Notes: generated by a model not told the origin, from the sequence alone. A DNA stretch of 34,670 nucleotides from a virus (IMGVR_UViG_3300032116_000719:1-34670); one strand, 5' to 3'. Shown: positions 2,641-25,091, counted from the stretch's first letter. Numbers and translations: made by a program.

Positions 2641-2846
2641 ACTGGACCAAGCTCTTGGCCGACGCTGGGATCCCGGAACCGCCGGGGCGCGAGGAGGCCA
2701 TCGAGGCGGTGCGCCGCAAGCGGGAGGAGCAGGAGGCAGCGAAGGCGGCTGAGGATGCCGCGGCGACCCAGCGGCATCAGGAGCGCCTGGCGGCCCAGGG
2801 GGACACCAAGAAGGCGATCCGCTCGAAGGTGCGGGTGGGTGGATGA
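2637..2846 (+). CDS. Small helical protein preceding the terminase
   Basis: This is a 69-aa protein with GTG start, overlapping the large terminase start by ATGA at 2843-2846. After a short N-terminus (NWTKLLADAGIPEPPGREEA) it is an Arg/Lys/Glu/Ala-rich helix (residues about 20-60) likely to form a coiled coil, and it ends in KVRVGG. Translational coupling to the terminase suggests a packaging-related role, but small terminase is a better match to the minus-strand gene at 4611-4931. Not recognised as a family. Confidence 0.65.
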   Translation: MNWTKLLADAGIPEPPGREEAIEAVRRKREEQEAAKAAEDAAATQRHQERLAAQGDTKKAIRSKVRVGG

Positions 2847-8368: not shown

Positions 8369-10321
8369 TCAGTCCACCGTCTGGCCGCTGCTCATCCCCG
8401 TAGAAGAACCTGAGAAGAACGCCGGAGAAGGGGTGCCGAGGTTGGTCAGGGTGTCACCAGCGAACGACCATAGCTCGTTGGTAAATGTGCTGAGCTCACG
8501 GATGTAGAACCTGCCCGGAACACGCCTGACTGGCACCAGCCGATCGCTTTGTGTGGCGTTGCTCGCAGCGAGAGATAGCGTCGTCCCGTTAAACGCAAGA
8601 ACCAGGAGGGGAGATGCAGTGGTGCTGATTACGATCCGGTTCCCTGCGGCGCTCCAGAATCCATTCCTCGCTCCAGAACAGGAGTAAGACGCAACAGCAA
8701 CGTAGGCGCTGCCGGATCTGGCGATAATGTGGGCGACAGTATCTGTGACCAAGAGAACGTAGTTGTCCGTTGGGTCAAACTCAACAGCGCGAAGACTCGA
8801 AAAGGTCGGAGAAAGAGCTGGATAGCTTGTTGCTTCCGTGAAGGTGTCGCCGCTCCTTGCAATCAGCCGATACGGGGGGAAAAGGTTCTCCCACAGGCAG
8901 AGGAAGCTGCCAGACCGTGACCAGCGGATCGCCGTGTTTGAAATACTAGATGTCAGCGGGCCGCTAAGCGTCAGTGACTGAATCTGCGTGTAGTTGTTTT
9001 TCGCTGCGTCAGCCTTGTAGATGTATAAAACGTTGTTCGGTGCCGACGTGAGGACCGCAACGTAGTTCCCATCAGGGCTGACCGCTACCGCTTTTGTGTT
9101 GCCAGTCCCGGCCAGGGCGGGAGAAGCGTTCACAAGAGAAAACGAGCTGCCGCTGCGCTTCCAGATGTAGACATTTCTTCCTGTAGTGTTGTTGCTGGCG
9201 TTGGAGACAATCAGCGCATCTGTTGAAATGCTGGGGCCCATTCCGTTGGCGGTTTGCATCCCCGTCGCGCCGCTAATGGTGATCGCAGTTCCGACTGTCA
9301 GGCCATCGACAAAAGCTGCGCTCAGCTGGTCTCCGGTGCTGTATTTTACGAAAAGCTCCCCAGGTTCCGAAAGCCTTGCCCCAAACCTGATGAACGGGAA
9401 GTAGCTGGCGTCCGGCGCGAAGGGGTTGGTTAGGTTTGCCTGCAGCGGAAAGCCAAAGGTTGTGGTCCCGTCGCCGTTGCCGTAGGTGGTCCCGATTGCG
9501 TTGAAAAGTTGAGCGTATTGCGCCCTCTGCTTGTCCACCCCATTGCAATGCAGCCAGCCGTCAGGCGGGGTGAGCGGGTTCCTTTGCAGCCACACGATCG
9601 TCCCCACCGGCGTGTTCGGGTCATCCACCGCAAGGGTGTTCAGCAGCGCCGACGAAACCCCTCCAACGCTCGTGATGTTCCCAGCGACCACCCCATCGAT
9701 CAGGTTCTTCAGCACCCGCCCCTGGTTGGCGCTGAGTGCCGCGGCTGCGTCGGTGCTGGTCAGGCCATCGACCACCGCGGGCCCGCTGCCGTCCGCCACC
9801 AGCCCATCAACCACGGCATCGATCGCGTCGATCAGCGCCTTCAGCGCCCGGCCCTGGTTGGCGCTGAGGGCCGATGTCTGGCTGGTGCTGATCAGGTTGT
9901 CGATCACCTGAACCAGCGGGGCGCCACCCGACAGAAGGTTCACGGCGCCCTGGGTGATGATCACCCGGTCGATGAACTCCTGCACCACGAACAGAACCTG
10001 CTGGTCCGCGGCGGTGAGCTCGAAGGCCGTGGGCGGGCTGCCGGCCTGCCACTGCGTCACCCGCTGGTCGATCGGGGTGATCCGCACCACCGAGACCGTC
10101 TTCCCCAGGGGCGGGGGGACCACCAGATTGACCGACGTATCGCCGGCCCAGTCGAAGCCCACCCCGGGCGCCAGCTCGGACTCGAACACGGCGGTGTTCG
10201 GATTCCAGTTGAGGTAGACCCGGACGTGCGGCTTGACGATGTACGGGAACGGCACGGCGAACACGTCCGTGGTCCCGTTCCCGTCATAGGTGCGGTAGGA
10301 GTAGGGGATCGGGAGCGTCAC
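8369..10321 (-). CDS. Tail fibre with T7 gp17-type N-terminus, collar domain and beta-propeller-like tip
   Basis: This is a 650-aa protein. Residues 1-135 are the T7 tail-fibre N-terminal domain that anchors to the tail (YRTYDGNGTTDVFAVPFPYI, TPIDQRVTQWQAG, FELTAADQQVLFVVQEFIDR). Residues about 145-215 hold two copies of an ALSANQGRxLKxLID module. A phage tail-collar domain follows at about 235-290 (GTIVWLQRNPLTPPDGWLHC, then GNGDGTTTFGFP). The last 300 residues look like a beta-propeller, with repeats such as VYIWKRSGSSF, VAVSPDGNYVAVLT and EFDPTDNYVLLVT. That region should be the receptor-binding part. GTG start is 9 bases after a TGCA element. The propeller region is clearly lower in G+C than the core genes. 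Confidence 0.9.
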   Translation of the reverse strand: MTLPIPYSYRTYDGNGTTDVFAVPFPYIVKPHVRVYLNWNPNTAVFESELAPGVGFDWAGDTSVNLVVPPPLGKTVSVVRITPIDQRVTQWQAGSPPTAFELTAADQQVLFVVQEFIDRVIITQGAVNLLSGGAPLVQVIDNLISTSQTSALSANQGRALKALIDAIDAVVDGLVADGSGPAVVDGLTSTDAAAALSANQGRVLKNLIDGVVAGNITSVGGVSSALLNTLAVDDPNTPVGTIVWLQRNPLTPPDGWLHCNGVDKQRAQYAQLFNAIGTTYGNGDGTTTFGFPLQANLTNPFAPDASYFPFIRFGARLSEPGELFVKYSTGDQLSAAFVDGLTVGTAITISGATGMQTANGMGPSISTDALIVSNASNNTTGRNVYIWKRSGSSFSLVNASPALAGTGNTKAVAVSPDGNYVAVLTSAPNNVLYIYKADAAKNNYTQIQSLTLSGPLTSSISNTAIRWSRSGSFLCLWENLFPPYRLIARSGDTFTEATSYPALSPTFSSLRAVEFDPTDNYVLLVTDTVAHIIARSGSAYVAVASYSCSGARNGFWSAAGNRIVISTTASPLLVLAFNGTTLSLAASNATQSDRLVPVRRVPGRFYIRELSTFTNELWSFAGDTLTNLGTPSPAFFSGSSTGMSSGQTVD

Positions 10322-10345: not shown

Positions 10346-10600
10346 TCATTCTGTCTGCTCGTCCTCCTTGCGGACAGATCGGCGCCGGGCCTGGTTCAGG
10401 GCCGGGTTCGGGGTCCAGAAGCCGCTCTCCCAGCCGGCGCGGCCCGCAGTCCCCAGCCCCGCCAGGGCGCCGCCGGTCAGGTAGCAGCCGTCCACCTTGC
10501 CGCCATGAACCCGGCAGTCCACCAGAAAGATCACCCCGAAGGCGATGGCCAGCCAAGAGGCCCCGCCGATGGCGCGGGCAGTGGCGCGGGGATCCCTCAC
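10346..10600 (-). CDS. Small membrane protein, possible holin
   Basis: This is an 84-aa protein. A basic N-terminus (RDPRATARAIGG) precedes a membrane span (ASWLAIAFGVIFLVDC) at about residues 13-30. A second weaker apolar stretch (LTGGALAGLGTAG) and a charged tail (RRRSVRKEDEQ) follow. Size and layout suit a class II or III holin, but no family signature is visible. The GTG start overlaps the stop of the large upstream gene by GTGA, so the two are co-translated. Confidence 0.6.
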   Translation of the reverse strand: MRDPRATARAIGGASWLAIAFGVIFLVDCRVHGGKVDGCYLTGGALAGLGTAGRAGWESGFWTPNPALNQARRRSVRKEDEQTE

Positions 10601-13600
10601 CTGGCGCCCCCCAGGGCATCCACCAGCGGCTGGAGCTGATCCAGGGCATTCTGGGTGCGGGCCTTGACCGCAGCGGTCTTGGCATCGCTCCAGGCCTTGG
10701 CCTCGGGGCTCTTGCCATCCCTGGCGCGGATCTCCAGCTCGTTCCGGGTCCGTTCGAGGTAGTAGTCCTTGATGGCGCTGATCATCAGCTGGGCCGGCTG
10801 CTGCCGCCGGATCGCCTGGGGCATATCCCGGCGTTCCAGGTCGGAGGTCAGCCGGGCGTCGGCCTCCATCCGCTGGTAGATCGGGTCGTTGAACAGGGAC
10901 CGCAGGGCGTCGGCCACCGCCTTCCCCTTCACGTGCTTCTCCAGGTAGGGGGCCAGGTCGATCGTGATGGTCTCCCCGTCCTTTACCCGCACCCCATTGG
11001 GCAGCACCACCTGATACTCCACGGGCAGCCGGGCGACCACCTGCTTGCCCACCATGGCGTTGGTCGCCAGCAGGCTGCCGCCCTTCGCCGAGCCGTAGAT
11101 GTCGATCGCCTCTCGCTGCAGGGCTGCAGTCATCCCCACCCCGTCGAGGTTGCGGCGGCGGAACTGCACCGGCGGGTCCAGCTGGCCCATGGCCTCCAGC
11201 TCCGCATAGATCGGATCGTTCGGCCAGGCGCCGGGGAAACCGATTGGGATCACCCTGGCGAAGTCAATCCCCGCGATGTGTCCCCGGGGGCTGCCCAGCC
11301 AGTCCTGGTCACGCTTGTTGCCCGCCATGCCGGCTACGAACGGCAGGGCGCTGTAGGCGACATCCCGCAGCCGCTTCTGCACCCCAGCGAGCGGGCCATC
11401 GAGGTCGCCGGCCAGGCCCTGCTGGTACTGCAGGAGGTGGCTGTCCTTGCCGTCCTGGTACTGGTTGGCCAGGTCCATGCCGAAGGACCGCTCGACGGAC
11501 CCCAGGGCGCCAGAGAAAGGCACGTAGAGGCCCTTGGCCATGAAGCCGCCGAACTTCACCAGCGCATCCCAGGAATCCATGTTCCCGTCCCCGAAGGCGC
11601 TGATCAGCTGCTGCAGCTGGGCGACGCCGGTGCCCCGCATGATGTAGCCGGTCAGCACCTGGGCGGCGCCGTTGAAGGCCTCGTTGCCGTCCAGGTCGCT
11701 GGCGCCCGCCTTGGTCAGGGCATCCTTCACGTCCTTCCACAGGAACAGGGTGGAGAGGATCGGGATCCCGCCCAGGTAGGGCATCCCCATGAAGCTGTTG
11801 CGCTTGGCCGGATCGGGGTGGGTGTTGCCGGTGATCAGGCCCGCCTGGTCCACGGCGCCGAACAGGGCCAGCAGGCCCATCGAGATCGTCCAGCGACTGG
11901 CGACCTCGGCCATCTCCTCGCTGCCGGCCCTCCCCTTCATGGCCAGGGCCACCATCTTGATCGGGTCGTAGAAGGGGCTGGTGGCCAGCCTCATGTCGAA
12001 CAGGAGGGCGTTCGCTGGGGCCCGCCAGTAGGGCAGGATCGTGTCGGCCCACCACTCCTTGCGGATCGCCATCACGCTGCGGTCGATGGCCTTGATCGGG
12101 TCCGTCGTGGAGTCCATGAAGCGGGTCATTTCCCCGCCCGGCGTGCCCTGCATCCGGGTCTCGGCGCCGTACTGGAAGGCCCGCACCGATGCAGGGGTGC
12201 CGAAGGTGGGGCTGCCGGCCACCTCCTGCTTCACCATCATGTCCATCACCTCCTGGTCGGTGTACCGGGCCAGGTCGTCGGAGGCATCGGGCATCCCGTC
12301 GAGGCCCAGCTGGCCGTCCATCTCGCCCAGCTTGTGCTGCTTGCGGAAGGCCTTGATGTTCGCCTCGGTGGGCGTCACCTGATAGACGGCCTGCTCGATC
12401 TGGTCCTGCACCCAGGCATCGCGCTTCGCGGGGGTGTCCAGGCCCAGCGTCACCGCCTCGGCCCTGGCCTTCACCTCCAGGTCGCTCATCAGGTGGAACA
12501 GATACTGGAACTTCCCGTGCACCTCATCGAAGGTGCCGAGCATCCGCAGGGCCGGCTGCAGGGGCATGTCGTTCCAGAGCTCCTGCAGCTTCAGCCGGAC
12601 GGCCACGTTCAGCTTGGGCCCGGCCATCGCCACGTTTGCGGCCCAGTTCCGGGTGGCCCACTGCTGCTGTGCAATCCGGTTCGCGTCCGCCCGCACCTCG
12701 GCATTGGAGCTCATCCGCTTGCCGTAGACATCCGGGTTGCCCCCGAAGTGACTCTTGCCCTCGAAATAGGCGTCCTTGAGCAGCTTCTTGAGCCCCTGCC
12801 GCGTCATGTGCAGGGCGTAGCTGTAGGCCCTGGCGGTGATCTTGGCGCTGTCCAGCAGGCCCAGCCGCTTCAGGCTGTTCGTGCCGGCGGGGACCATCGT
12901 GAGCCCGTTCTTCAGGGTCTTCTGCAGGGGCCCGTAGAGCATCATGACCATGTTGGTCATCTCCCCGGACTTGATCTGGGTGACGGTGCCCGACAGCTGC
13001 GAGTCCTTGGCCCAGGCCCGCCCCAGCCGCATGGTGGTGTTGAACCACCCCTTGTCCAACTTGGCCTTGGGGTCCATGCCCTCGATCTCCAGGGTCTCCT
13101 GGATGTCGCGGATGGTCCTGGTGCCGGCGGGCCCCTGGTCCACGGCGTCGATGATCTTGCCGATCACGGAATCGGGGCTCACGTCCTCGGGGGTGAGGCC
13201 CAGGATCTCCTCTGGTTCCCCCTTGGCGGCCGGGGCGGCCCCCGGGGACAGCCGGTCCTCGGGCTTCGACAGCCAGGGGGTGTCCACGAAATCGGGGATC
13301 GCCCCATCGGCCATGTCCTCCTGCAGGCTCCGCAGGGTTTGGGCGGTGCGCCGACGCGCGAAGGCGTAGTGGCGCTCACCCAGCAGGGCCAGCTTGTACC
13401 ACTTGTAGGCCTCCTGTTTCATGACGTCGGGCACCTCGGCGCCGGGCAGCGACTCCATGAAGTCCGCGATCCGGCCGGTGCCATCCATGAACTGCTTCTT
13501 GGTGCGATCGGCGAACAGGCGGATCCGCGCCATCCGCTCCACCATGCCGGCGAACCCTGCGGCGTCGTTGGCCATGCGGGCCTGCACCTCGGGCACCGTC

Positions 13601-14091
13601 ACCCCGAACTCGCTCAGCGCCCTGGCGGTGACCTCGGCCATCCGCTCGCGCCCGTACATCTGGGTGACGAAGGCGAAATCCTTGGGGTCCAGCCTCTCCC
13701 AGGTCAGCCCCAGGGCCCGCGCCAGCATGGCGTAATCCTTGGCGTCCTGGATGTCAACCTCCCGCAGGATCCGGTCGTAGTTCTGGAACTGGCCTTCCGC
13801 CCCCACCGGCCGCCGCTGCTCACCCAGGGCCCGGTCCACGAAATCCTCGAGCTGCTTGCTGTCCAGGGTGTCGGCCAGCTGCTGCACCCCACGGGTCAGA
13901 TCGGCATCGTTCAGGATCCGGGGCTTCCCATCGACCCCCGGCAGGATCACGTCGTTCCCGGCCTCGGAGATGATGAAGCGATCGCCGGCTCGGCGGGCAC
14001 GCTCGGATTCGTTCAGCTGTTGCTGAAGCTCCTGCTTCTGCTTCTGCAGATCCTGCAGTTGCTGGAAGGCGTCGTCGCAAGTGTTGGCCAT
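10597..14091 (-). CDS. Large internal virion (DNA-ejection) protein, T7 gp16-like position
   Basis: This is a 1164-aa protein. The N-terminal 50 residues form a Gln/Leu-rich coiled coil (QQLQDLQKQKQELQQQL). The remainder is a long, mostly helical protein. It includes a region with scattered apolar stretches around WRAPANALLFDMRLATSPFYDPIKMVALAMKG and LLALFGAVDQAGLITG (residues about 690-770), of a type seen near the C-terminus of very large phage ejection proteins. It follows the 1324-aa gene after two bases with a good AAGGAGGG Shine-Dalgarno. In T7, gp14-gp15-gp16 form the channel that carries DNA across the envelope. I assign this as the last and largest member of that set by position, size and composition, not by a catalytic motif. 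Confidence 0.75.
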   Translation of the reverse strand: MANTCDDAFQQLQDLQKQKQELQQQLNESERARRAGDRFIISEAGNDVILPGVDGKPRILNDADLTRGVQQLADTLDSKQLEDFVDRALGEQRRPVGAEGQFQNYDRILREVDIQDAKDYAMLARALGLTWERLDPKDFAFVTQMYGRERMAEVTARALSEFGVTVPEVQARMANDAAGFAGMVERMARIRLFADRTKKQFMDGTGRIADFMESLPGAEVPDVMKQEAYKWYKLALLGERHYAFARRRTAQTLRSLQEDMADGAIPDFVDTPWLSKPEDRLSPGAAPAAKGEPEEILGLTPEDVSPDSVIGKIIDAVDQGPAGTRTIRDIQETLEIEGMDPKAKLDKGWFNTTMRLGRAWAKDSQLSGTVTQIKSGEMTNMVMMLYGPLQKTLKNGLTMVPAGTNSLKRLGLLDSAKITARAYSYALHMTRQGLKKLLKDAYFEGKSHFGGNPDVYGKRMSSNAEVRADANRIAQQQWATRNWAANVAMAGPKLNVAVRLKLQELWNDMPLQPALRMLGTFDEVHGKFQYLFHLMSDLEVKARAEAVTLGLDTPAKRDAWVQDQIEQAVYQVTPTEANIKAFRKQHKLGEMDGQLGLDGMPDASDDLARYTDQEVMDMMVKQEVAGSPTFGTPASVRAFQYGAETRMQGTPGGEMTRFMDSTTDPIKAIDRSVMAIRKEWWADTILPYWRAPANALLFDMRLATSPFYDPIKMVALAMKGRAGSEEMAEVASRWTISMGLLALFGAVDQAGLITGNTHPDPAKRNSFMGMPYLGGIPILSTLFLWKDVKDALTKAGASDLDGNEAFNGAAQVLTGYIMRGTGVAQLQQLISAFGDGNMDSWDALVKFGGFMAKGLYVPFSGALGSVERSFGMDLANQYQDGKDSHLLQYQQGLAGDLDGPLAGVQKRLRDVAYSALPFVAGMAGNKRDQDWLGSPRGHIAGIDFARVIPIGFPGAWPNDPIYAELEAMGQLDPPVQFRRRNLDGVGMTAALQREAIDIYGSAKGGSLLATNAMVGKQVVARLPVEYQVVLPNGVRVKDGETITIDLAPYLEKHVKGKAVADALRSLFNDPIYQRMEADARLTSDLERRDMPQAIRRQQPAQLMISAIKDYYLERTRNELEIRARDGKSPEAKAWSDAKTAAVKARTQNALDQLQPLVDALGGAR

Positions 14092-14093
14092 GA

Positions 14094-17000
14094 TTAGCAG
14101 CCCTCCTTGGCGGCACGTTGGCGGATGGATTCCATCTGTGCATCCAGGGCGGCGATGGATTCGTTAGCCGATCGCAGCATTGACGTGTGATCGGCGGCCT
14201 CGGACTTCCACTGCAGGATCTTCTGCATACGGAAATCGCTGAACACCTCGCTTTCGCTCAGTGTCCTTGCGAGGCCGCCGTCTACAGCACGGTCGTAGAT
14301 TCCTCGGATCGAGTCGAACCCATTGCCCTTGAAAGCATTTGTGACCCTTTCAGTAAAATCAAGGACACGATCGAAGGCCTTGGCGATGACCCTCGCTGCT
14401 GCTCCAAGCGGCGTTGAAGGTTTAACAGGAAGGCCGAAGATAGCCGCGATTGGGTCGGTTCCGGTGAGCTTGGCCCGTGCATACCGCTGGAACGAAACCG
14501 CCTGAGCTTCACTGTAGGCCATCTCTCTGGGGCCGACCGCCAGCAGCGCCTTGGCCCTGGCGAAGGCCCCGTCCATTACCCGCATCTCCTTCTCGGAGAG
14601 GGCCAGGTACTGGATCCGGTGGAAGGCCTCATGGGCGGCCACCTCCACGATCTCCTCGTCGCTCACGGAGGGATAGGCCAGGCGGTTCACCTGGATCAGG
14701 TCTTCCTCGAAGCGGTAGAAGCCGCCCACCTCTGCGACATCGTCCTTTCTGCCGGTGCCTCCCCATGCCGCCGGCCGCTGCCGCGTCTCGCTGAGCTCGC
14801 GGAAGCGGATCTCGGCCTCGGGGCCGGCCACCTGGCGGATGATCCTCCGCGCCAGCACCTCCCGGTCGAAGATGCGCCCAGAGTCGAGCAGGGGGACGCC
14901 GCCGACCGAATCCCAGCCCTCGGGGGCGGCGCTCAGGTCGTCGGCGATCCGCAGCGGCTCGGGGCGGACGGGGGCTACGGGCTCGCCTGCGGCGGCCTCC
15001 GGCTGGGCCCTGGGGGCCTCGGCGTCATCCCACCCATCGATCATCCCCAGCGCCTTCTTCTCCTCGAAGGTGCGCTCGTCGTAGCCGTAGGCCTCCCGCA
15101 GCTGCTGCTCGGCCTCCCACCGGTTGGCGGAATCCTCCAGGGCCTGCTCGCCGGCCAGCCGGATCTCATCCTCCAGCGCCTGGGCCCCGGGGGTGCCGGG
15201 CTCCACCGCCTGGCGGGCATGGATGTCGGCAATGGCATCGTCGGGCCGCACCCGCGGGCCATCGCTCAGCTCGGGGATCGGGGTGGTGGGCGGCCGGGCC
15301 TCGCCGTTCTGGATCGCTCGAGCAGTGATCCGCATCTTGGCGGCCTCCAGCTCGGCGCCCGTGGGCGGGGGTTCCACCGGGGGCCCGGCCTGCTCGGGCG
15401 GGGCGAACAGATCCACCTGGTCGGGGTTTGCCTCGGGGGTGGGCGCCCGGCCCGTGGCGGCATCCATCTCCCGCTGGAGGATCGCCGGCATGTCGTCGGC
15501 CACCTGGCGGGCCACCGCCGCCGGCTGCTCGCCATCGGCGATCTGCTGGGCCGCACGGTTCAGGCGGTCGCCCACCTCGCCTGTCTGGTACTTCAGCCGC
15601 TCGAAGGTCTTCAGGGCCGTGGTGGACTCCTCGGCCACCGCCTTGGAGCCAGCCCGGTCGATCGTGTTGGCGGCCTTGCTCTCCAGCTGCTTGGCGGCCT
15701 TGGCCACCCCACCGAACGCCTTGGCGTCCTTCTTCAGCAGCTCCTCCACCTGGCGCACCAGCCTGACCTTGGCCCTGGCCCCCTCGTCCACCCCGTAGCT
15801 CTCCATGCCCGGGATGCCCCCCTGGCGGGGCTTCACCGCCGGGGAGCTTGCGGTCATGGTGCCCAGCTCCTTCAGCTCCCAGTCGGGGATGCTCGGGTTT
15901 TTCCGCACCTCATCCGCCAGCATCCGCATCCCGCCCTCCGGCAGGCCCGAGTCGCCGATGATCACCGCCTTCCGCAGGCTGATGTCGCCGTTCACCGCGG
16001 AGCCATAGAGGTCGTCGGGCAGCTTGGTGAGCGCCAGGCCATCACGGGCCCAGCTGCGCTCCCCGGTCATCCCTGCGGCCTTCAGCTGCTCGGGGGTGGT
16101 GAGGCCCGATTCCCGCATGAACTTCGCGGCATCGAAGGCATTGCCCTGCCCCTCGGTGATGTTGGCAATGGCGCCGAACGCACGGGCGGCCGATGGCTTG
16201 CTGGCGGTGATCTCGCGCACCGGCACCGATGGGATCCCCAGGCGGCGGGCCAGGGCCAGCCGGTTGTGGCCGTTGACCACGTAGGCCTTCCCATCCGCGG
16301 GGTCGCGCCACACGTCGATCACGCCCTCGGCCCGGGGGTTCCAGAACTCCTCCTCGCTGAGGGATGCGCCGATCTGCTGGCCCTGGGCATCGACCCCTTC
16401 CTTGAACTGGAAGCGGGCCGGGTCCACGGCGATGTCCTCCACCGCCATGCTCTGGGTGCCGGTCAGCCGCTCCGCCAGCGCCGTGCGGCCCTGCCGGGAC
16501 AGCGACCGCAGCGCATCCCTGATGTCGGTGGCCGTGGCGTCCTCCCAGCCGCCCCGCTGGTTGATCAGCTCCTGCGCCAGCTCGGGGGAGGTCTCGGGGT
16601 TGTTCAGGGCCCGCAGCGCCGCCGGGTCCACGGCATCGAGCAGTTGGCTCCAGGGCTCAGCCTCGCCCGCACCCTGCACGTAGAGCTCGCTGATCCGATC
16701 GGTGGGGGCCGCCACCTGGCCGAACCGGATCGGCTCGGGCTGCGGCGTCATCGCCTGTTGCTCCTGGAACCGCTGCACTGGCTCGGTGATCGGGCCATCG
16801 GTGCGATCCAGCTCGCGGATCTGCTCGGGGGCGAGCTCGTCCAGCGTCTTCAGCACGTCGGTGGCCTCGGGCAGCTCCGGGTCGAAGTCATCCCACGGGT
16901 CGATCGCCGGATCCAGGGGGTCCGGCAGGTCCCCCTGCTTGGGCTTGGCGAAGCCCTCCACCGCCGCGGCGTTGTCCGCGTTCACCTGGGCGATCTGGCC

Positions 17001-18068
17001 CTCCACGTCGGCCAGCTGCTGCTGCAGGGGGTCCGCAGGGGTGGACGCCGGCTCCTGACCCAGCCGCTGGCGCATGGCCTGGTCGGCCTCGGCGAAGCCT
17101 GCCGGGGGCTTCTGGGGTGCAGCATCGGCCACAGCAGGGCCCGGCCTGGTGGCGCCATCCCCGGCGTCCTCGATGACCCCCGCCTGCGTCAGCCGGCCCC
17201 GGGCGGCCACCTCGGTCTCCTTCAGTCGTTGGCCCCGCAGTCGGCGCGCCGTGGCTGGCAGCAGCCGGGCAGCAGCGCCGATGGTGGCCCCGACCGCCTG
17301 GCCGCCCACCACGTTCCCCATGAAGGTGGCGCCGGCCGCATCGATCATGTCGGCCTTGCCGATCTTGTCCCCCAGCCCGCCCGGCAGCTTGGTGCCCAGC
17401 GCCTGGTTCACCATGTCCACGAACCCGCCGCCGGTGCTGTCGTCCAGGAACTGGCTCAGGGCCTCGTTCGTGCCGAAACTCAGGCTGCCGCGGACCACCT
17501 TCCCGGCCATGGTGGCTGCCCTCAGCGCACCGATGCCGCCGGTGACCGGGGCCAGGCCCACGTTCAGGAGCAGGGAGCGGTTGAACATGTCCTTGTTCCG
17601 TTCCCCACTCGTCTGCTCGCTCGGGGGCTTGGCCCCCAGCAGTCGGTAGGCGCTGTCCACCCCACGGTCCAGGATCGGCCCAAGCCGCCCGCCGCTGGGG
17701 TCTGCCTGCTTGGCGCCCCGCATCCGCTGGTAGGCCGAATAGCCCATCCGCAGGGCGTTGTCGGCCACGCCCACCGGGCCGGCCAGCATCTGGGGGGCGT
17801 TGACGTTGCCGAAGGCCACCCGCGTCATCGCAGGGTTCACGTTCCCCGCCAGCCGCATCATCGACCGCACGGGATCCCGGCGGGCCTGGCGGAACTCATA
17901 GGTGGCGTCGTTGACCAGCTGCTGAAACGGGTTCAGCCGGCGGCGGCGGGCCGGGGGCCGCGGCTTCGGCTTGGCGTCCTCCTCCGGCACCGAGGGCTGC
18001 AGGTCTGCAGACGAATCCGTGCCAACGATCGTTGGCTTCCCGTTGATGATCTTGATCGTGGCGGGCAT
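14094..18068 (-). CDS. Internal virion protein with ParB-like and zinc metallopeptidase domains
   Basis: This is a 1324-aa protein. A disordered, Pro/Arg-rich N-terminus is followed by Gly/Ala-rich apolar segments (residues about 180-290) that could enter membranes. Residues about 540-660 are a ParB/Srx-like domain (VEDIAVDPARFQFKEG, then AYVVNGHNRLALARRLG with the NGHNR motif near 600). Near residue 1146 is HEAFH, an HExxH zinc site, inside EIVEVAAHEAFHRIQYLAL after a beta-hairpin ending DLIQVNR. Such ParB plus metallopeptidase combinations are known from 'polyvalent' proteins that phages and conjugative elements inject with their DNA. Here the protein sits between the gp15- and gp16-like proteins, so it is probably packaged and ejected. 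ATG is preceded by AGGAGCTGAG. Confidence 0.8.
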   Translation of the reverse strand: MPATIKIINGKPTIVGTDSSADLQPSVPEEDAKPKPRPPARRRRLNPFQQLVNDATYEFRQARRDPVRSMMRLAGNVNPAMTRVAFGNVNAPQMLAGPVGVADNALRMGYSAYQRMRGAKQADPSGGRLGPILDRGVDSAYRLLGAKPPSEQTSGERNKDMFNRSLLLNVGLAPVTGGIGALRAATMAGKVVRGSLSFGTNEALSQFLDDSTGGGFVDMVNQALGTKLPGGLGDKIGKADMIDAAGATFMGNVVGGQAVGATIGAAARLLPATARRLRGQRLKETEVAARGRLTQAGVIEDAGDGATRPGPAVADAAPQKPPAGFAEADQAMRQRLGQEPASTPADPLQQQLADVEGQIAQVNADNAAAVEGFAKPKQGDLPDPLDPAIDPWDDFDPELPEATDVLKTLDELAPEQIRELDRTDGPITEPVQRFQEQQAMTPQPEPIRFGQVAAPTDRISELYVQGAGEAEPWSQLLDAVDPAALRALNNPETSPELAQELINQRGGWEDATATDIRDALRSLSRQGRTALAERLTGTQSMAVEDIAVDPARFQFKEGVDAQGQQIGASLSEEEFWNPRAEGVIDVWRDPADGKAYVVNGHNRLALARRLGIPSVPVREITASKPSAARAFGAIANITEGQGNAFDAAKFMRESGLTTPEQLKAAGMTGERSWARDGLALTKLPDDLYGSAVNGDISLRKAVIIGDSGLPEGGMRMLADEVRKNPSIPDWELKELGTMTASSPAVKPRQGGIPGMESYGVDEGARAKVRLVRQVEELLKKDAKAFGGVAKAAKQLESKAANTIDRAGSKAVAEESTTALKTFERLKYQTGEVGDRLNRAAQQIADGEQPAAVARQVADDMPAILQREMDAATGRAPTPEANPDQVDLFAPPEQAGPPVEPPPTGAELEAAKMRITARAIQNGEARPPTTPIPELSDGPRVRPDDAIADIHARQAVEPGTPGAQALEDEIRLAGEQALEDSANRWEAEQQLREAYGYDERTFEEKKALGMIDGWDDAEAPRAQPEAAAGEPVAPVRPEPLRIADDLSAAPEGWDSVGGVPLLDSGRIFDREVLARRIIRQVAGPEAEIRFRELSETRQRPAAWGGTGRKDDVAEVGGFYRFEEDLIQVNRLAYPSVSDEEIVEVAAHEAFHRIQYLALSEKEMRVMDGAFARAKALLAVGPREMAYSEAQAVSFQRYARAKLTGTDPIAAIFGLPVKPSTPLGAAARVIAKAFDRVLDFTERVTNAFKGNGFDSIRGIYDRAVDGGLARTLSESEVFSDFRMQKILQWKSEAADHTSMLRSANESIAALDAQMESIRQRAAKEGC

Positions 18069-18069
18069 C

Positions 18070-18972
18070 TCAGCTCCTCAGGAATCGCTCGGCCCGGCGG
18101 CGGCGTTCAGGACGCGCCTCCTCTGGGCCACCCCGGAGGGATGTCCAGCGCCTGTTCAGCAGTCGCTCGGCCAGGTCGAAGTTGCCGGCGCCGATTGCTC
18201 GGTAGGCATCGGGATGGGCCTTCTGGATGAACTCCATCACCGCGGCGTACTGCACCCGTGCATTGTTGCTGAGCAGTCGGCGTCTGGCGATCCCGAAGCG
18301 TTGCTCGGCGTCGTCCAGGGTGATGGGAGTGAACTGGAACCTGCCCATCGCCCGGCCGCCGCCCACCGCTTCGGTGTACCCGGGGACGTTGTTCCGCCCG
18401 TCGCTCTCGAGCTGGGAGAGGAAGGTCAGGAACCGCTGCTGGTTGGCACGCTTGCCGCCGCCACCCCGGGGGCTGGAGCCCCCGAAGGTGCCGCCCCGCT
18501 CGAAGGTGTTGCGGAACCGGTCGCGGATCGCCAGGGTGCTGCTGCTCGCCCGGCTGGAATCGGGGTCGAAGAAGTCCAGGCTGATGTGCGCCCCGGTGGT
18601 GGAGCCGGTGCGGCCCTGGGTGCCCAGGAAGGTGCCGGCCGGATAGGTCCGCCCCGGCCGCAGCGATGGGTTCAGCTGGTCGTGGTGGGAGCTCAGCACG
18701 TCCACCCGCTTGCCGGTCACCGGATCGGTGAAGCGGATGATCACGTGGTTGCCGTAGCCCCGGCCTGCCTGCCCCTTCTCCTTGTGGAACTCCTGCCCGT
18801 TCCGGTTCACCTCCAGTACCTGGAAGCTGGTAGGCCAGGTCATGCGGGCCCCGCGGCGGCCCTGCTCGATCACCATGTCGAAGCCCGGCTCGCCGCTGGC
18901 ATCCACCCGGCTGGTGACGATGACCCCAGGCAGAGGGCGATACCCCTCGCCTACCCCACCTGGGACTGCGAA
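18070..18972 (-). CDS. -1 frame extension: LytM-like plus lambda-R-like transglycosylase module
   Basis: These 300 codons have no suitable start of their own at the domain edge. The first GTG (18906) would cut off the first strand of the LytM fold (GVIVTS). They are most simply read as the -1 frameshift continuation of the 801-aa gene, giving about 1095 aa. First is an M23/LytM-like domain (GYGNHVIIRF, VLSSHHDQL, GTFLGTQGRTGSTTGAHISLDF) with a degraded zinc site: HIS replaces HxH and the first His is absent. After a Gly/Arg linker comes a lambda R-type (GH104) lytic transglycosylase: FLSQLESDGRNN with the likely catalytic Glu, AMGRFQF, and WTSLRGG. It would open peptidoglycan during DNA entry, the job of the gp16 N-terminus in T7. 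Confidence 0.75.
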   Translation of the reverse strand, partial: FAVPGGVGEGYRPLPGVIVTSRVDASGEPGFDMVIEQGRRGARMTWPTSFQVLEVNRNGQEFHKEKGQAGRGYGNHVIIRFTDPVTGKRVDVLSSHHDQLNPSLRPGRTYPAGTFLGTQGRTGSTTGAHISLDFFDPDSSRASSSTLAIRDRFRNTFERGGTFGGSSPRGGGGKRANQQRFLTFLSQLESDGRNNVPGYTEAVGGGRAMGRFQFTPITLDDAEQRFGIARRRLLSNNARVQYAAVMEFIQKAHPDAYRAIGAGNFDLAERLLNRRWTSLRGGPEEARPERRRRAERFLRS

Positions 18973-18978
18973 AAAGGG
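18925..18978 (-). promoter_or_regulatory. Probable programmed -1 ribosomal frameshift site
   Basis: The minus strand carries C CCT TTT (18978-18972) with CCT and TTT in the gp15 frame, so both tRNAs re-pair perfectly after a -1 slip. Seven bases later a stem CCCAGG/CCTGGG (18964-18959 with 18930-18925) encloses an inner stem GGCGA/TCGCC (18951-18947 with 18940-18936). The zero-frame TAG (18953-18951) lies within the structure. Confidence 0.75.
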
Positions 18979-21356
18979 AGGGATGGCCGCTGCCCACCTC
19001 CGCTTGCGGCCATGGCGGGCCGGACCCCCAGCAGCAGATCGGCCAGCCAGCTGCCGGCTTTCACGAACGGGCTGGGTGTCATGGCGCGGCTGATCTTTTG
19101 GCCGGCGGCGGCCCCCTTGTTCACCCGATCCAGTAGCAGCTTCCTGGCGGCCGGGTCGATCGCCCCGGGGTAGCCATCGATCTGCCGCAGCAGCCACTTG
19201 GCCGGGGTCATGCCGGCGGCCCTTGCTGCTCGCTGCACGGCTGCGCTGGGGGCCTGGCCACCCAGCACCCGCATCACCTCCCGCATGGCGCTGGGCTTCT
19301 CCAGCACCACGGCGCCGCTCTCGAGCACCTTGGGGTCCACGTTGTCGAGGTTGCCGCTGGTGACCGTTGGCGTCCTGCTCCACTGCCGGCCGGGCGGGGG
19401 CGGGGGTGCGGGCGCCCCGGTGGCCTGGGGCTGCGGGGACTGCACCTTCCCGCCCTCGATCCCCGGGCCGCCGCTCAGGCCGCCGGGGAACAGGAACTGG
19501 CGCAGATCCTGGTCCTTGGTGCCCAGGTACTCGTTGAAGGCCGTGGTGGCGATCGCGGTCAGCTCGGTGTTGCTGAGCCGCCGGCCAGCCTTGGCCGCGG
19601 CCTCGTCCATCCGCGCCTGCATGTGCTTGCGGGCCCCCTCGTTCAGCCGGGCCGCCGCGGTGCGGACATTGGCATCACCGAACGCCATCCACCCCTGGAT
19701 GTCCTTCACCCCCCGCAGCGATGCCTCGGTGATCGTCTTGGGATACTCCCGCCGCAGGGCCGCCGCGATGCCCTGGCTCAGGATCGGGTCGATGATCCCC
19801 CGTTTGCTGTTCTGCGCCTCCTTGCCCTTGCTCGCCGCCAGCCCTGAGAACCGCTTCAGGTAGTCGGCCTGCATGTCGTTGGGCATCCCGGCGAGCCGTG
19901 CCTTCAGCGCCTGCATCGCCTCAGCCGAATCGAACCCGGCGGGGTCCATGGTCTCCAGCACGGCCATGAACTCCTCGATGCCGGTCTGGTCGGTCTGCCG
20001 TTCGGCGATGCTGCCGACCACCCGCCCGAACTTGTCGGTGGCCTCCAGCATCTGGGCATAGCCCAGGCCCCGCTCGCCCCACTTGGCGATCACCTCCTCC
20101 ACGGCGGCCCGCTGCTCGTCGGACGCCTCGGGGTTCTCGGACATCACCAGCGCCAGCTCGTTCTCGAACTGCTTCTGCAGCGACGCCTCCTGCCGGCCCT
20201 GCTTCTCGTAGCGGTCCTTTTCGCCCTCCTCCTGGGCCCGGTAGAAATCGGGGCCGAACATCAGCACCGCCGGCAGCCGCTTGCCGTCCTTGCCCGGCGG
20301 GCCCACCTCCAGCTGGCCGACGATCCCGATCAGCTCCTGCAGCTCGGCCGCCTTCTGCGGGTCCGCCTCGCCGGTCATCCGGCCGTTCAGCATCTCCAGC
20401 AGGTAGTTGATCGTCTTCTTCGTCGTCTCCGTGGTCTCCCCCCGGAGGCCCATCGTGTCCCGGATCCGGTCGATGGCCTGGTTCAGGGCCACCCGCATCC
20501 CCTGGTTGAAACCGGGATCCCCAAGGGCTGCCTGCCGCTGCACCGGCTTGCCGGTGGTGGGGTCGAACTCGGTCCAGGCGATCCCGCCCTGCTCCCGGGC
20601 GTTGTTGTAAATCTGCAGGATCTCCGCGCCCACCGTTGGGGCCACGGTGTCCTTCTGGAACGCCGTGAAGGCGTCGTACTGCTCGCTCGAAACCCGATCC
20701 CACGCCTGGGCGATCTCCGGGTTCACGTAATCCTGGAAGCCGGCGCTGGTCTCGTTCAGCCCGTATTTCTTCAGTAGCCTGCTGGTGGCGTCCACCTTGA
20801 TCTGGGCCAGCCGGGGGTCGTTCGGCGCCCACGTGTTCGCCTCCGGGGTCTGCCGGTAGGCGTCGAGGATGGTCCGCCCGGCCTCCCCTGCCGCCAGCCG
20901 CGCCAGCTGGTTCTCGCGGCCTGCCTGCCGGAACGGGTTCACCCGATCCATCAGCTGGCCGGCGATCGGGTCGGCCGCATCCACCGCCCGGTTCTGGGCC
21001 GCGTACTCGGCGCCCGCCTTCAGCCGCTGCTGGTTGGCCAGCACCTGAGCCCGCACGGCATCGTTGCGGCCCTTCTCGTATTCGCCGCTGGCGTAGAGCT
21101 CCACGCCGGTCAGCGCCACCTTGCTCAGCGCATCGTTGAAGGGCGCCAGGGCGCCGGCCAGCTGCGCCCACTGGTTGAAGCCCTCCACATTCCCGCCGCT
21201 GCCCGCCGCCTGGGCCTGGATCTGGGGCGGCCCGCTGCTCAGTGCCCGCAGCTGGGGCAGGCCGCCTCGCTGGTTGCGGGCCATGGGCCGCAGGAAGGCA
21301 TCGACCCCCTGGGCCGCCGGGACGATGGAACCGCCGGGGAGCTCTCTCATTGTCAT
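18951..21356 (-). CDS. Internal virion protein, T7 gp15-like
   Basis: This is an 801-aa protein in the zero frame. It is long and mainly helical, rich in Ala, Gln, Glu and Arg, with no enzyme motif seen. An early Gly/Gln/Pro segment (PQIQAQAAGSGGNVEGF) leads into helices such as ALAPFNDALSKVALTGVELYASGEYEKGRNDAV. This pattern is common in podovirus internal core proteins that form the periplasmic DNA tunnel. ATG overlaps the stop of the 278-aa gene by ATGA. Six codons before the stop is a slippery C CCT TTT, so a fraction of ribosomes probably extends the protein by 300 residues of peptidoglycan hydrolase. The zero-frame form ends SQSQVG. Confidence 0.85.
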   Translation of the reverse strand: MTMRELPGGSIVPAAQGVDAFLRPMARNQRGGLPQLRALSSGPPQIQAQAAGSGGNVEGFNQWAQLAGALAPFNDALSKVALTGVELYASGEYEKGRNDAVRAQVLANQQRLKAGAEYAAQNRAVDAADPIAGQLMDRVNPFRQAGRENQLARLAAGEAGRTILDAYRQTPEANTWAPNDPRLAQIKVDATSRLLKKYGLNETSAGFQDYVNPEIAQAWDRVSSEQYDAFTAFQKDTVAPTVGAEILQIYNNAREQGGIAWTEFDPTTGKPVQRQAALGDPGFNQGMRVALNQAIDRIRDTMGLRGETTETTKKTINYLLEMLNGRMTGEADPQKAAELQELIGIVGQLEVGPPGKDGKRLPAVLMFGPDFYRAQEEGEKDRYEKQGRQEASLQKQFENELALVMSENPEASDEQRAAVEEVIAKWGERGLGYAQMLEATDKFGRVVGSIAERQTDQTGIEEFMAVLETMDPAGFDSAEAMQALKARLAGMPNDMQADYLKRFSGLAASKGKEAQNSKRGIIDPILSQGIAAALRREYPKTITEASLRGVKDIQGWMAFGDANVRTAAARLNEGARKHMQARMDEAAAKAGRRLSNTELTAIATTAFNEYLGTKDQDLRQFLFPGGLSGGPGIEGGKVQSPQPQATGAPAPPPPPGRQWSRTPTVTSGNLDNVDPKVLESGAVVLEKPSAMREVMRVLGGQAPSAAVQRAARAAGMTPAKWLLRQIDGYPGAIDPAARKLLLDRVNKGAAAGQKISRAMTPSPFVKAGSWLADLLLGVRPAMAASGGGQRPSLPFSQSQVG

Positions 21357-22189
21357 CGTGCGAGGGGGTTGGACTTGCCGCTGCTGGTCATCGAGCGGAC
21401 CTGGCTGTAGGCGCCCATGCCGAACTGGGCGCCCTCAATCAGCGATGTGCCCAGCCGCAGGGCGCCAGCCGTCCCGCTCGGGGGTGCGCCGGTCATCGTC
21501 GGGGGCCCTGGCAGCACCAGCGACGGCAGCGGCACGAATGGCGCCATCGGCTCCAGGTACGGCTGCGCCTCGTAGAAGGCCTGGGAGTTGTAGGCGTTCA
21601 GGTACTGGGCCACGGCGCCCGCCTGCTCCCGCCGGTACTGGCGATTCCGCAGGCCCTCGTTGATCGTGGCAATCGTCTGATAGTCCCCCTCCTGCCGGAG
21701 GAAGTCGTTCATCAGCCGGTCGATGCTGGCGCCCACCTGGGGGTTGGCACGGATCGATGCCCGGTTCTTCAGTGCCGCGATGCTGTACTGCTGCAGGGCC
21801 ACGGCGTCGGCCATCGCCTGCTCGCCCAGGCGCTGCTGGATCGCCTCGGCCGTGGTGACGAACTGGACGCCGGCAGCTTCCCGGGTCTCGCGCACCACGT
21901 CGGCCTGGTCGATCGCACGAACCAGATCGACGTTCCTCTGCGACCGTGCATAGGCCAGTTCCTGGTTGTACTGGACCGTCTGGGCCCAGTAGTTCTGCTG
22001 CTGGTTCGCCCGGTTGATCGATGTCTCGATCGAAGACCGCCAGCCCTGATACCGCTGGTTCGCCTGCTGAAATGCCTGCTCGTTCAGGTACTGCTGGCGC
22101 TCAGCGTTGTTCTGGGCAAAGGCGCCGAAGATGTTCAGCCCCGTCCTGGCGGCGCCGATGCCAATTCCCAGCAGGGCCGGCAGTGCCAT
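21353..22189 (-). CDS. Internal virion protein, T7 gp14-like
   Basis: This is a 278-aa protein. The N-terminus is apolar and Gly/Ala-rich (ALPALLGIGIGAARTGLNIFGAFAQ, about residues 2-26). A long Gln/Asn/Arg/Ala-rich helical body follows (QQNYWAQTVQYNQELAYARSQRN), then a Pro-rich C-terminal third. T7 gp14, the outer-membrane part of the ejectosome, has the same size range, the same apolar start and the same place just before gp15. ATG shares one base with the previous stop (TAATG). Confidence 0.8.
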   Translation of the reverse strand: MALPALLGIGIGAARTGLNIFGAFAQNNAERQQYLNEQAFQQANQRYQGWRSSIETSINRANQQQNYWAQTVQYNQELAYARSQRNVDLVRAIDQADVVRETREAAGVQFVTTAEAIQQRLGEQAMADAVALQQYSIAALKNRASIRANPQVGASIDRLMNDFLRQEGDYQTIATINEGLRNRQYRREQAGAVAQYLNAYNSQAFYEAQPYLEPMAPFVPLPSLVLPGPPTMTGAPPSGTAGALRLGTSLIEGAQFGMGAYSQVRSMTSSGKSNPLAR

Positions 22190-22650
22190 TACATCTTCAG
22201 CCGAAAGTAGTGGAACAGCTGGCAGCTGGGCCCGTGGGGCTCAGGTGGGAACACCTCAAACCCCAAGGACTTCAGCCACCGCACGGATTCTAAGTTCTTT
22301 GCACAGACCCAGTTATGGAGCAGCACCACCCCGCTGCTCTGCATCCTGTCGTGCACCAGTGAATCGATCCATCCCCGGGCGCCGCGGGCCAGCTGCCGCC
22401 GGTGCGAGGGGGTGCCCGTGAGCGCATCGGTGCCCAGCATCCAGATGAAATGCCCGTTCACTCCGGCCAGGCCGCACGGCTGCCCGTCATCCCCCTCGAT
22501 CCCGATCGCCACATCGCTCTCGACAAAGGCGCTGATGCACGCGATCTGTGGGTGCCGGCCCTCGGCCGCCTGCAGCTCAAAGCGGTCGGCCGCCCGCAGG
22601 TTGCGAGCGACGTCCATGGCGCCCTCCTCGGTGGCGGGGACGATCCTCAT
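22189..22650 (-). CDS. GNAT-fold acyltransferase-like protein (T7 gp13-like)
   Basis: This is a 153-aa protein. It starts MRIVPATEEGAMDVARNLR, followed by VAIGIEGDDGQPCGLAGVN (a GNAT beta-hairpin pattern). It ends with VLLHNWVCAKNLESVRWLKSLGFEV, the NxxSxRxxKxxGF acetyltransferase end motif. T7-like phages carry a GNAT-fold protein (gp13 position) between the tail tube and internal core genes, required for virion assembly. No clear acetyl-CoA loop (R/QxxGxG/A) is obvious, so catalysis is doubtful. Start and stop overlap both neighbours (ATGA with tail tube B, TAATG with gp14-like). Confidence 0.8.
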   Translation of the reverse strand: MRIVPATEEGAMDVARNLRAADRFELQAAEGRHPQIACISAFVESDVAIGIEGDDGQPCGLAGVNGHFIWMLGTDALTGTPSHRRQLARGARGWIDSLVHDRMQSSGVVLLHNWVCAKNLESVRWLKSLGFEVFPPEPHGPSCQLFHYFRLKM

Positions 22651-25091
22651 TTGACCTTCCCGGCGAGCAGCCCGACCCACTCGCAGGTGGTGAACTTGCA
22701 GGGACGCGCCGTGGGGTTCCGCAGCGTCACCTTCGCCCGCCGGCCCTCGCTCATGATCGGGATCGAGAAGACCCCCTCGCCGCTGGGCCCCGGGGCGGTG
22801 AAGCGGTAGACCGCTTCGGCCCGGCCCTCCGGGGTCACCGTGGCCTCGAAGTAGCCGGAATCGTGGTAGCGCAGCTTGGCGCTCCTGACCTGGGTGCGGA
22901 CCTCGTTCATCGCCACCTTGCCCCCGCCGATCTCCCGCATCGCCTTGAACCGGGTGAAGGTGTAGAGGAAGTCGTAGACCTCCCCGAAGAACACGCTGGC
23001 GCTGCTCCAGTTGCCGCTCGCTGTGATGGTGGTGTCGCCGCTGGCAGCCGTGGCGATGCGGGCCCCCTCCTCCCATGCGCCGGCACTGCCATAGGCCGAC
23101 CACGCCTGCACCGGGGCCGAAGCCGCATAGGGCAGGGTCCAGGTGGTGGCCTGGGTGGTGGTGTTGTAGATCCCGGGGGCCACCCGCAGGGCCACAGGCG
23201 TCGCCGTGGTGGTGCTCACCCGGCGGTCCAGCAGCAGGGGGAACTCGGGGCTGTCGTCGTCCACCTCTCGGTCGGCCACCCGCATCCGCTCGAGGAATAC
23301 GGCGCCGCCCGGGTACTCCACCAGCAGGTACAGCACCTCCTCGATCACGCTGATCTGCAGGATCCGAGAGGCGCCGGTCAGCTGCCAGTAGCTCCAGCTG
23401 GCCTGCACCCGCTCGCCACCGGCGCCGCTGTTGCGGAAGAAGAACTTGTGGGTGTAGATCCTGTTCGCGTATCCGGCCTTCTGACTGATCGCATACCAAG
23501 CGTTGCCCGTGGCGTTCACCGCCAGGCGGAACACGTCGCCAGGCACATAGGAACCGGTGTTCTCGTTCAGGCTCTGGGCGTCGGCCACCAGCGCCGTGCC
23601 AGCCCCTCGGATGCTGAACTCCCGGAACTGGGTCCACTGTCCGTTTTTCTGGGCGAACACGATGGCGCCGGCTACCTGGATCGGCCGCACGTCCGGGTCG
23701 ATCTCGTACTGGGTGAGGACCGTGATCTGTGCCGTCGCCGGGGTCAGGGCCTGCTCGGAAGATCCCAGCCGGAACTGCAGCTGCTCGGAGAACAGGATCA
23801 GCTCGTCCTGATAGGTGACGGCATACCGCAGGATCGAAACCTGATTGTTGCTGGCGCTCAGATCGATCGGGTCACTGTCGAGAGTAGCGATCGTTGTCTC
23901 AGGGAAGAACTCGAAGAAGTCCTGTGCCCGACTGAGAACCACCGCCTCGTCAGCCAGCAGCCCCAGTCGGTTCCGATATACGAAGATGTCGTTAATTGGC
24001 TTGCCGATGAATGTAGGATCCGGCGCACTTTCGTAATCCCCTGCGGTTCGCTCGCCCCACTTCGGCAGTTCATAGCCGGAATAGGTCGTCCCATTGGCGG
24101 GGCCGAAATAGAACTGGCCGCTGGCCAGGCGCACCAGCACGTGGGGCATGGTGGCCGGGTTGATCTTGTACTCGACCCCCGGAGCCACCGTCTCTTCCCA
24201 GCTGCCCTCCCCGAAGGTGCCGCCCCCGGTGCGGACCTGGAAGTTCACGTAGTAGCCATCGAAGCGGTTGCCGGGATCGCCTACCACTTCCACCTGATAC
24301 CCCTGCGGGGCGATCGTCGGCAGCTGGGTGAAGCTCTGGACGCTGTTGGTGATGGCGGTGATGTCAGCGTTCGCCCTGGCATCGGTGGCCTGCAGGGTGA
24401 TGGCGCTGGCGCTGGTGAAGTGCAGGACCGATCCCACTCGGGTGATCGTCACCCCGGCCACGCCGGCCAGGGCCACCCGGACCTGTTCGGCAATGTCGGC
24501 GGTGCTGATCTGGTAGGTGGTGGTGGTGCCACCGCTGACGATCACCGGCGCCACCTGGGTGGTGACAGTAGCCAGGGTGCCGTTCAGGTTCACCCGGTAG
24601 GTCTGGCCATAGTTCGCAGCCTTCACCCACGCCAGTGCCTCGTGGGTGTTGGGCCGGGCGACTGCCGGCGCCAGGGCCGCGTCCATGGCGGGCGCCACCA
24701 GCCGGTTGCTGATGAATGTGACGTCAGCGATGGAGGTGGCCCTGATCTGTGCGGTCGCATCGGTGACGCTGGCCAGGTAGCCGTAGCCGCCGGGGGCGTT
24801 CACCGTGCGGGGGCTGCCATCCAGGGCGAACACGCTGATGCCGCTGGAGCGGATCACCGCCAGATACCGCTCGTTCCCGTCTCGCAGGATCGTGTGAACG
24901 AAAGCGTCGCCAAAGCTGGAGGTGCTCACTCTGGCCAGCGCCACCGTGGGGTCGCGCTTCCGCAGGCCCTCGCCCAGGCTGCTGACGGCGTTGATCTGCT
25001 CCTCGGCCTGGGTGGGATCCCGCTGGGCATCCGCCTGCTGGGACACCCCCTGGATCAGGTTGGGGATCAGGTAGGTGGTGAGTTCAGGCAC
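22647..25091 (-). CDS. Tail tubular protein B (T7 gp12-like nozzle)
   Basis: This is an 814-aa protein. The N-terminus (ELTTYLIPNLIQGVSQQADAQRDP followed by NAVSSLGEGLRKRDP) is the hallmark of T7 gp12 relatives, where the G(I/V)SQQ and EGLxKR motifs are conserved. Length is near that of T7 gp12 (794 aa). The rest is beta-rich, with YRNRLGLLADEAVVLSRAQDFFEFFPE and LDSDPIDLSASNNQVSILRYAV typical of the family. It builds the tail nozzle below the gp11-like ring. GTG 25091 is chosen because the family signature starts at once; it overlaps the gp11 stop by eight bases. Confidence 0.93.
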   Translation of the reverse strand: MPELTTYLIPNLIQGVSQQADAQRDPTQAEEQINAVSSLGEGLRKRDPTVALARVSTSSFGDAFVHTILRDGNERYLAVIRSSGISVFALDGSPRTVNAPGGYGYLASVTDATAQIRATSIADVTFISNRLVAPAMDAALAPAVARPNTHEALAWVKAANYGQTYRVNLNGTLATVTTQVAPVIVSGGTTTTYQISTADIAEQVRVALAGVAGVTITRVGSVLHFTSASAITLQATDARANADITAITNSVQSFTQLPTIAPQGYQVEVVGDPGNRFDGYYVNFQVRTGGGTFGEGSWEETVAPGVEYKINPATMPHVLVRLASGQFYFGPANGTTYSGYELPKWGERTAGDYESAPDPTFIGKPINDIFVYRNRLGLLADEAVVLSRAQDFFEFFPETTIATLDSDPIDLSASNNQVSILRYAVTYQDELILFSEQLQFRLGSSEQALTPATAQITVLTQYEIDPDVRPIQVAGAIVFAQKNGQWTQFREFSIRGAGTALVADAQSLNENTGSYVPGDVFRLAVNATGNAWYAISQKAGYANRIYTHKFFFRNSGAGGERVQASWSYWQLTGASRILQISVIEEVLYLLVEYPGGAVFLERMRVADREVDDDSPEFPLLLDRRVSTTTATPVALRVAPGIYNTTTQATTWTLPYAASAPVQAWSAYGSAGAWEEGARIATAASGDTTITASGNWSSASVFFGEVYDFLYTFTRFKAMREIGGGKVAMNEVRTQVRSAKLRYHDSGYFEATVTPEGRAEAVYRFTAPGPSGEGVFSIPIMSEGRRAKVTLRNPTARPCKFTTCEWVGLLAGKVK

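Follow-up and report, generated by a model that had tools for sequence, protein, structure and literature searches.

The window analysed here is a whole virus record (IMGVR_UViG_3300032116_000719:1-34670; 34,670 bases, about 64-71% G+C), in which the open reading frame (ORF) at 14094..18068 on the minus strand encodes a protein of 1324 amino acids, P0001. On balance, and with somewhat more confidence than doubt, we take P0001, encoded by a T7-like phage, to be an ejection protein of polyvalent type, which would be delivered from the virion and would combine a DNA-tethering ParB module with exchangeable effectors. The ORF begins with ATG and is open throughout. A first-pass annotation had described a 1324-residue protein containing the motifs NGHNR and HEAFH, which is borne out; the minus strand had not been stated there. 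Comparison with relatives from IMG/VR divides the protein, in minus-strand order, into a constant N-terminal region (residues 1-540; 16449..18068) with profile matches in about 50 loci, a predicted ParB N-domain with helix-turn-helix (HTH) (residues ~541-745; 15834..16448), a helical extension seen in the AlphaFold2 (AF2) model and alignments and kept along with ParB (residues ~746-872; 15453..15833), and a variable cargo region (residues ~873-1324; 14094..15452), which in this phage bears a putative zincin (residues ~1063-1246; 14331..14882).

Predicted ParB and zincin domains

The AF2 model of the ParB region reached a predicted local distance difference test score (pLDDT) of 81, and a Foldseek comparison with the PDB returned ParB, Noc or KorB in all 23 of the 23 matches at E ≤ 0.001 (best E 4.9e-6), over N-domain and HTH. 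The first-pass annotation had named a ParB/Srx-type domain and proposed structure prediction of this region as a check; the prediction found the ParB fold, whereas the Srx part of the label did not hold, since the best sulfiredoxin match of the model had an E of 0.087. A single domain of sulfiredoxin/Osa-like type was rejected because ParB, Noc and KorB fit far better. The template modelling (TM) scores were modest overall (best target-normalised TM 0.64), which probably reflects a different arrangement of the two subdomains. Matches to PDB ParB by sequence lay at E 0.04-0.26 in a list containing ParB proteins only, and profile A6, from which the most distant rows had been left out, found no ParB in the PDB; the sequence link to ParB is therefore weak and the fold match carries the ParB claim. 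Two of 43 relatives matched PHROG 6218, 'ParB-like partition protein'. The published DdrB-type ParB (PF18763) was rejected as an identity, as it was matched by 0 of 43 relatives while P1 DdrB itself scored 2e-39, and profile comparison gave a probability of 3-10%. The structural model is thus a strong match to a ParB N-domain with HTH that is nearer to chromosomal ParB, Noc and KorB than to sulfiredoxin. The alignments used for structure prediction were run without the outside-record rows L003/L004.

The NGHNR motif (residues 599-603; 16260..16274) exceeds what chance would give, being identical in 163 of 174 related ParB regions, with NGHHR in 8 and DGHQR in 2. N73-G-H-N-R77 and N110 (fragment numbering) are invariant in 69 aligned copies. 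Alignment to PDB ParB places GHNR at the GERR motif of ParB, the final Arg of GERR and the Asn of ENxQR being kept. While P0001 resembles ParB, Noc and KorB in its predicted N-domain and HTH fold, it differs from them in having GHNR for GERR, in that the Glu of ENxQR is not seen, in its long helical extension and in that no partition context is seen. ParB domains of polyvalent proteins have been suggested to act as nucleoside triphosphate-regulated DNases or in nucleotide sensing (PMC5512222).

P0001 matched no Pfam family, and its sole PHROG match of weight was PHROG 21, 'portal protein', over residues 538-844. Identity as a portal was rejected, since this family consists of portals with a C-terminal ParB of the present type and the match covers the ParB end only; the name 'portal' arises because PHROG 21 includes portal-ParB fusions. 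The last 300 or so positions of PHROG 21 are the same ParB as in P0001.

The proposed zincin-like domain around HEAFH (residues 1146-1150; 14619..14633) has the sequence signature of a zincin. H, E and H of the motif and a downstream Glu, in P0001 E1187 (14508..14510), the predicted third zinc ligand, are invariant in 25 aligned zincin regions, and the AF2 model (pLDDT 83) has the element order strand-strand-strand-HExxH helix-E helix, which fits a zincin. The best match among viral structures (3.7e-12) was the domain's own homologue from Nohivirus S31C1, named polyvalent in UniProt. A zincin profile without the rows of the Prochlorococcus P-SCSP1 phages retrieved P-SCSP1-type proteins at about 1e-25, which supports, at the level of sequence, one zincin family common to the lineage of P0001 and the P-SCSP1 type. 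The ratio of nonsynonymous to synonymous substitution (dN/dS) was 0.13-0.14 for the zincin (L022 vs L015 and L019; L numbers denote related loci) and about 0.05-0.5 for ParB, and both domains are therefore under coding constraint (purifying selection). The repeated linker PVRPEP was considered as a cleavage site and rejected: no protein has more than one copy behind ParB, and as this copy may precede or follow the zincin, it marks no consistent junction.

Exchange of the cargo region and recurrence of the ParB module

Among the relatives the N-terminus and ParB are constant, and the region behind ParB varies. The zincin is present in 27 of the 42 relatives with a complete 3′ end and absent from 15. 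Mapping this character on the ParB tree gives 11 changes, of which at least 7 are forced by well-supported branches. The closest relatives, L006/L007 (IMG/VR, 85% identical), are without the zincin, and only one member of each of the pairs L015/L018 (ParB 98.8% identical) and L032/L034 (97.6%) carries it. L060 and L085 share a ParB that is 99.1% identical and have zincins that are 22.7% identical; conversely, the zincins of L015 and L019 are 98.4% identical with ParB at 76.5%. The slot that holds a zincin in L022 is occupied in L024 by a PARP-like module that stays below the Pfam cut-off (E 1.7e-4), the ParB of the two being 94.9% identical. No zincin was found elsewhere in the 15 searched records of zincin-less relatives, some of which are fragments. 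That the zincin is so often gained, lost or swapped supports a reading of it as effector cargo, and a maturation enzyme would be less expected than such cargo to be exchanged between near-identical flanks.

By eye, further stretches resembling ADP-ribosyltransferases (ART-like) were noted in L013, L015, L027 and L034, with a motif of the HG[AT]...GxGLY type as sole support. The ART-like stretches of L013, L015, L024, L027 and L034 are unlike one another and lie at two or three places within the slot. L017 and L070 have in common a further module of another kind, at different places in the slot.

An IMG/VR search with the ParB region gave at least 322 related places, 80 of which were fetched. 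Classification of 174 ParB ORFs assigned 51 to T7-like ejection blocks, 26 to fused proteins of the P-SCSP1 type, 42 to head operons near portal, MuF or protease genes, 8 to portal-ParB fusions and 9 to other ORFs of more than 2000 amino acids, the rest being unclassified. Portals with a C-terminal fusion to this ParB occur in L066, L071, L072, L074, L080, L083 and L087. Of the other ORFs of more than 2000 amino acids, one, in L081 (8612-20548), encodes a tape-measure-like protein of 3979 amino acids, in which ParB occupies residues 476-801 and an M23-type stretch lies close to the end; another, in L005, encodes a DarB-like polyvalent protein with this ParB. The portal fusions and the tape-measure-like protein tie the ParB to the exit path of the DNA, and its constancy as a module on exit-path proteins suggests that it binds DNA. 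Among isolates, the same ParB is carried by only 21 of 50,697 phage records, namely 17 P-SCSP1-type Prochlorococcus phages, Nohivirus S31C1, two Dunaliella virus SI2 records and Ruegeria phage 45A6. A 42.5-kb contig that was binned with a Sphingomonadaceae genome carries a further relative with the module.

The ejection block and its fused counterpart

P0001 is encoded within a T7-like structural block on the minus strand, in the order gp12 tail nozzle (22647..25247; PF25675, E 8e-216), gp13-like internal virion protein (22189..22653; PHROG 308, E 1.9e-25), gp14-like internal virion protein (21353..22189; PF24072, E 8e-7), gp15-position ejection protein of 801 amino acids (18951..21356), an ORF with an M23 peptidase and a lysozyme-like part, the latter named by eye (18070..18876, with a likely ATG start at 18876), P0001, and the gp16-position gene P0002 of 1164 amino acids (10597..14091), with a tail fibre of T7-type N-terminus further on (8369..10321; PF03906, E 4e-13). 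The same order around the gene is found in about 50 IMG/VR loci. Other T7-like genes in the window encode a portal (PF12236), a Gp10A-like capsid protein and a terminase; the gene for the T7-type large terminase (2843-4642) is read from the plus strand, and the structural genes from the other.

The sequence GAGGAG ahead of the start of P0001, within the end of the preceding M23/lysozyme-like ORF, is its ribosome-binding site, and its own last codons, AAG GAG GGC TGC followed by the stop (protein end KEGC), contain the Shine-Dalgarno sequence AAGGAGG (14102..14108) for the next gene. This element is kept across split orthologues, in which the ending EGC or GGC is conserved and the next gene likewise begins at the stop. 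Judged from these embedded Shine-Dalgarno sequences, P0001 is probably translationally coupled to both neighbours. A C-terminal 'EGC' peptide acting as a packaging signal was rejected, since the Shine-Dalgarno sequence of the next gene explains the conservation sufficiently.

The M23/lysozyme-like frame (18070-18990, minus strand) and the end of the gp15-position ORF overlap, in different frames. Four relatives (L026, L038, L045 and L069) have the hydrolase part and gp15 as one fused protein; the gp15 of L006/L007 has an M23 part and behind it an apparent RlpA-type domain (named by eye). For the separate ORF in the window, gene splitting, a programmed frameshift and an error of assembly are possible explanations.

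The first-pass annotation had placed the gene between gp15- and gp16-like genes, which is right by position and fails by homology to T7 gp15 and gp16: hhalign comparisons of the ParB, N-terminal and ParB-plus-cargo profiles of P0001 with both T7 proteins stayed under a probability of 1%, profile comparison of P0002 with T7 gp16 detected no homology, and the labels 'gp15' and 'gp16' of the neighbours rest on position. The block resembles T7 gp14/gp15/gp16 in gene order and place, and the neighbour at 21353-22189 belongs to the gp14 family, whereas P0001 itself has no detected homology to gp14, gp15 or gp16. The T7 annotation has no ParB or zincin gene at the corresponding place.

Distant relatives of P0001 occur in Nohivirus S31C1 and in the P-SCSP1 phages. 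In the latter type, a single chain of about 2,400-2,590 amino acids comprises the N-terminus, ParB, the zincin and, at its C-terminal end, a part whose match to the gp16-position family including P0002 is weak (E 8e-5, probability 61%). Gene 21 of P-SCSP1a (L003 6636-14351) is such a fused relative, with 2571 amino acids. It resembles P0001 in having ParB followed by the zincin and in its genome place between gp12/gp14 and the fibre, and it differs in that the gp16-position-like part is fused into the same protein. The authors who described the isolates could not annotate gene 21 and guessed an internal virion protein from its size and position (PMC9860041).

Polyvalent proteins of phages include P1 DdrB, DarB-type proteins and the virion RNA polymerase of N4 (Iyer et al. 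2017, PMC5512222). Like these, P0001 is a large late-gene protein that combines unrelated domains, among them one of the ParB superfamily and a predicted zincin metallopeptidase: the ParB fold and the zincin signature and model give two unrelated domains in one polypeptide, and its gene lies among virion structural genes. The polyvalent-type combination anticipated for it thus stands as regards architecture and late-gene context, though not as regards the published DdrB-type ParB. By these sequence features P0001 belongs with the polyvalent proteins and, like them, would be injected. Its ParB family sets it apart from those published, as do its invariable position within a T7-like ejection block and its fast-changing cargo region, in which the exchange of cargo is directly visible.

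Competing explanations and meaning

In the mechanism that we propose, P0001 would be made and packaged together with the gp14-, gp15- and gp16-position proteins and would leave the head with them at infection. The N-terminal part, which in P0001 has two Gly/Ala-rich hydrophobic stretches (residues ~166-184 and ~253-271) and in distant relatives also shows hydropathy peaks, may be a constant part for assembly or translocation. The ParB N-domain and HTH would form a constant DNA-binding module that holds the protein to DNA, most likely the incoming end of the phage's own genome, and the C-terminal region would be a cargo slot, filled in relatives with other zincins, with ART-like modules or with none. 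In the present phage, the zincin would most likely be an injected protease acting on a host protein. Packaging and ejection are likely because of the constant place of the gene, its coupling, the portal and tape-measure-like fusions elsewhere and the fused gp16-position form.

The zincin might instead be a maturation protease that cuts its own chain or neighbouring ejection proteins before or during ejection, which we regard as unlikely while giving it more weight than the other rivals. Autoprocessing has been argued for this class, having been proposed for the metallopeptidase domains of polyvalent proteins and for phage P1 DdrB (PMC5512222), and in the P-SCSP1-type chain the zincin stands between the part corresponding to P0001 and the gp16-position-like part. 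The fused forms are one clade, however, so that their agreement is not independent, and the split lineage loses, swaps or replaces the zincin in otherwise near-identical proteins with none elsewhere in the record. In a purely mechanical role, with neither takeover nor counter-defence, packaged DNA would be bound by ParB at the portal vertex or within the ejection channel, and the zincin would do no more than clear envelope proteins out of the channel's way. Such a role would agree with the recurrence of the ParB module on portal and tape-measure-like proteins and with the peptidoglycan hydrolases carried by the gp15-position proteins or by a neighbour of theirs. A needed mechanical part would not be expected to get lost or to have ART-like modules in its slot, and we consider this role less probable still. 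Very improbable in our view is that P0001 is made late, remains inside the host and acts as infection ends, without being a virion protein. The want of proteomic evidence for packaging would suit it, but the conserved place in the ejection block, the coupling to both neighbours, the gp16-position-like fusion in P-SCSP1-type phages and the portal fusions in other phages all argue for a virion protein.

Several points weigh against a virion-delivered protein with DNA tether and effector cargo, the reading that we prefer. The canonical CTPase Glu of ENxQR occurs in none of 172 relatives scored, the position being Q, T, A, S or other; nuclease or CTPase activity of the ParB is therefore not to be assumed, and clamping by the ParB mechanism is not assured. 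The zincin model had no significant match in the PDB (best E 0.14), the top 20 of that list being dominated by metallopeptidases, mostly of zinc. The zincin is kept in every P-SCSP1-type ORF that covers its region, which also fits a processing role, and a literature search found no virion proteomics for this phage or a relative.

Beyond P0001, it is possible, though we would not yet bet on it, that the DNA-exit machinery of phages in general, be it portals, tape measures or T7-like ejection proteins, uses this family of ParB N-domain with HTH as its DNA tether. In T7-like phages the module would then be the invariable component of an injected carrier protein that exchanges its enzymes (zincins, ADP-ribosyltransferases and others) by recombination. 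Fusions to portal and MuF proteins are already known for other polyvalent effector domains (PMC5512222), and in the present comparison portals, a tape-measure-like protein and ejection proteins have one ParB family in common. The analysis makes a testable delivery system out of a hypothetical protein, and natural near-isogenic pairs, in which the zincin is there, missing, exchanged or substituted, allow an effector role to be told apart from a processing one. For the cultured P-SCSP1 phages, gene 21 gains an annotation, and the claim can be tested there, as P-SCSP1u is a cultured phage with a cryo-electron microscopy structure (PMC10575957). If the proposal is true, mining of the cargo slot could bring out effectors that work at the very start of infection.

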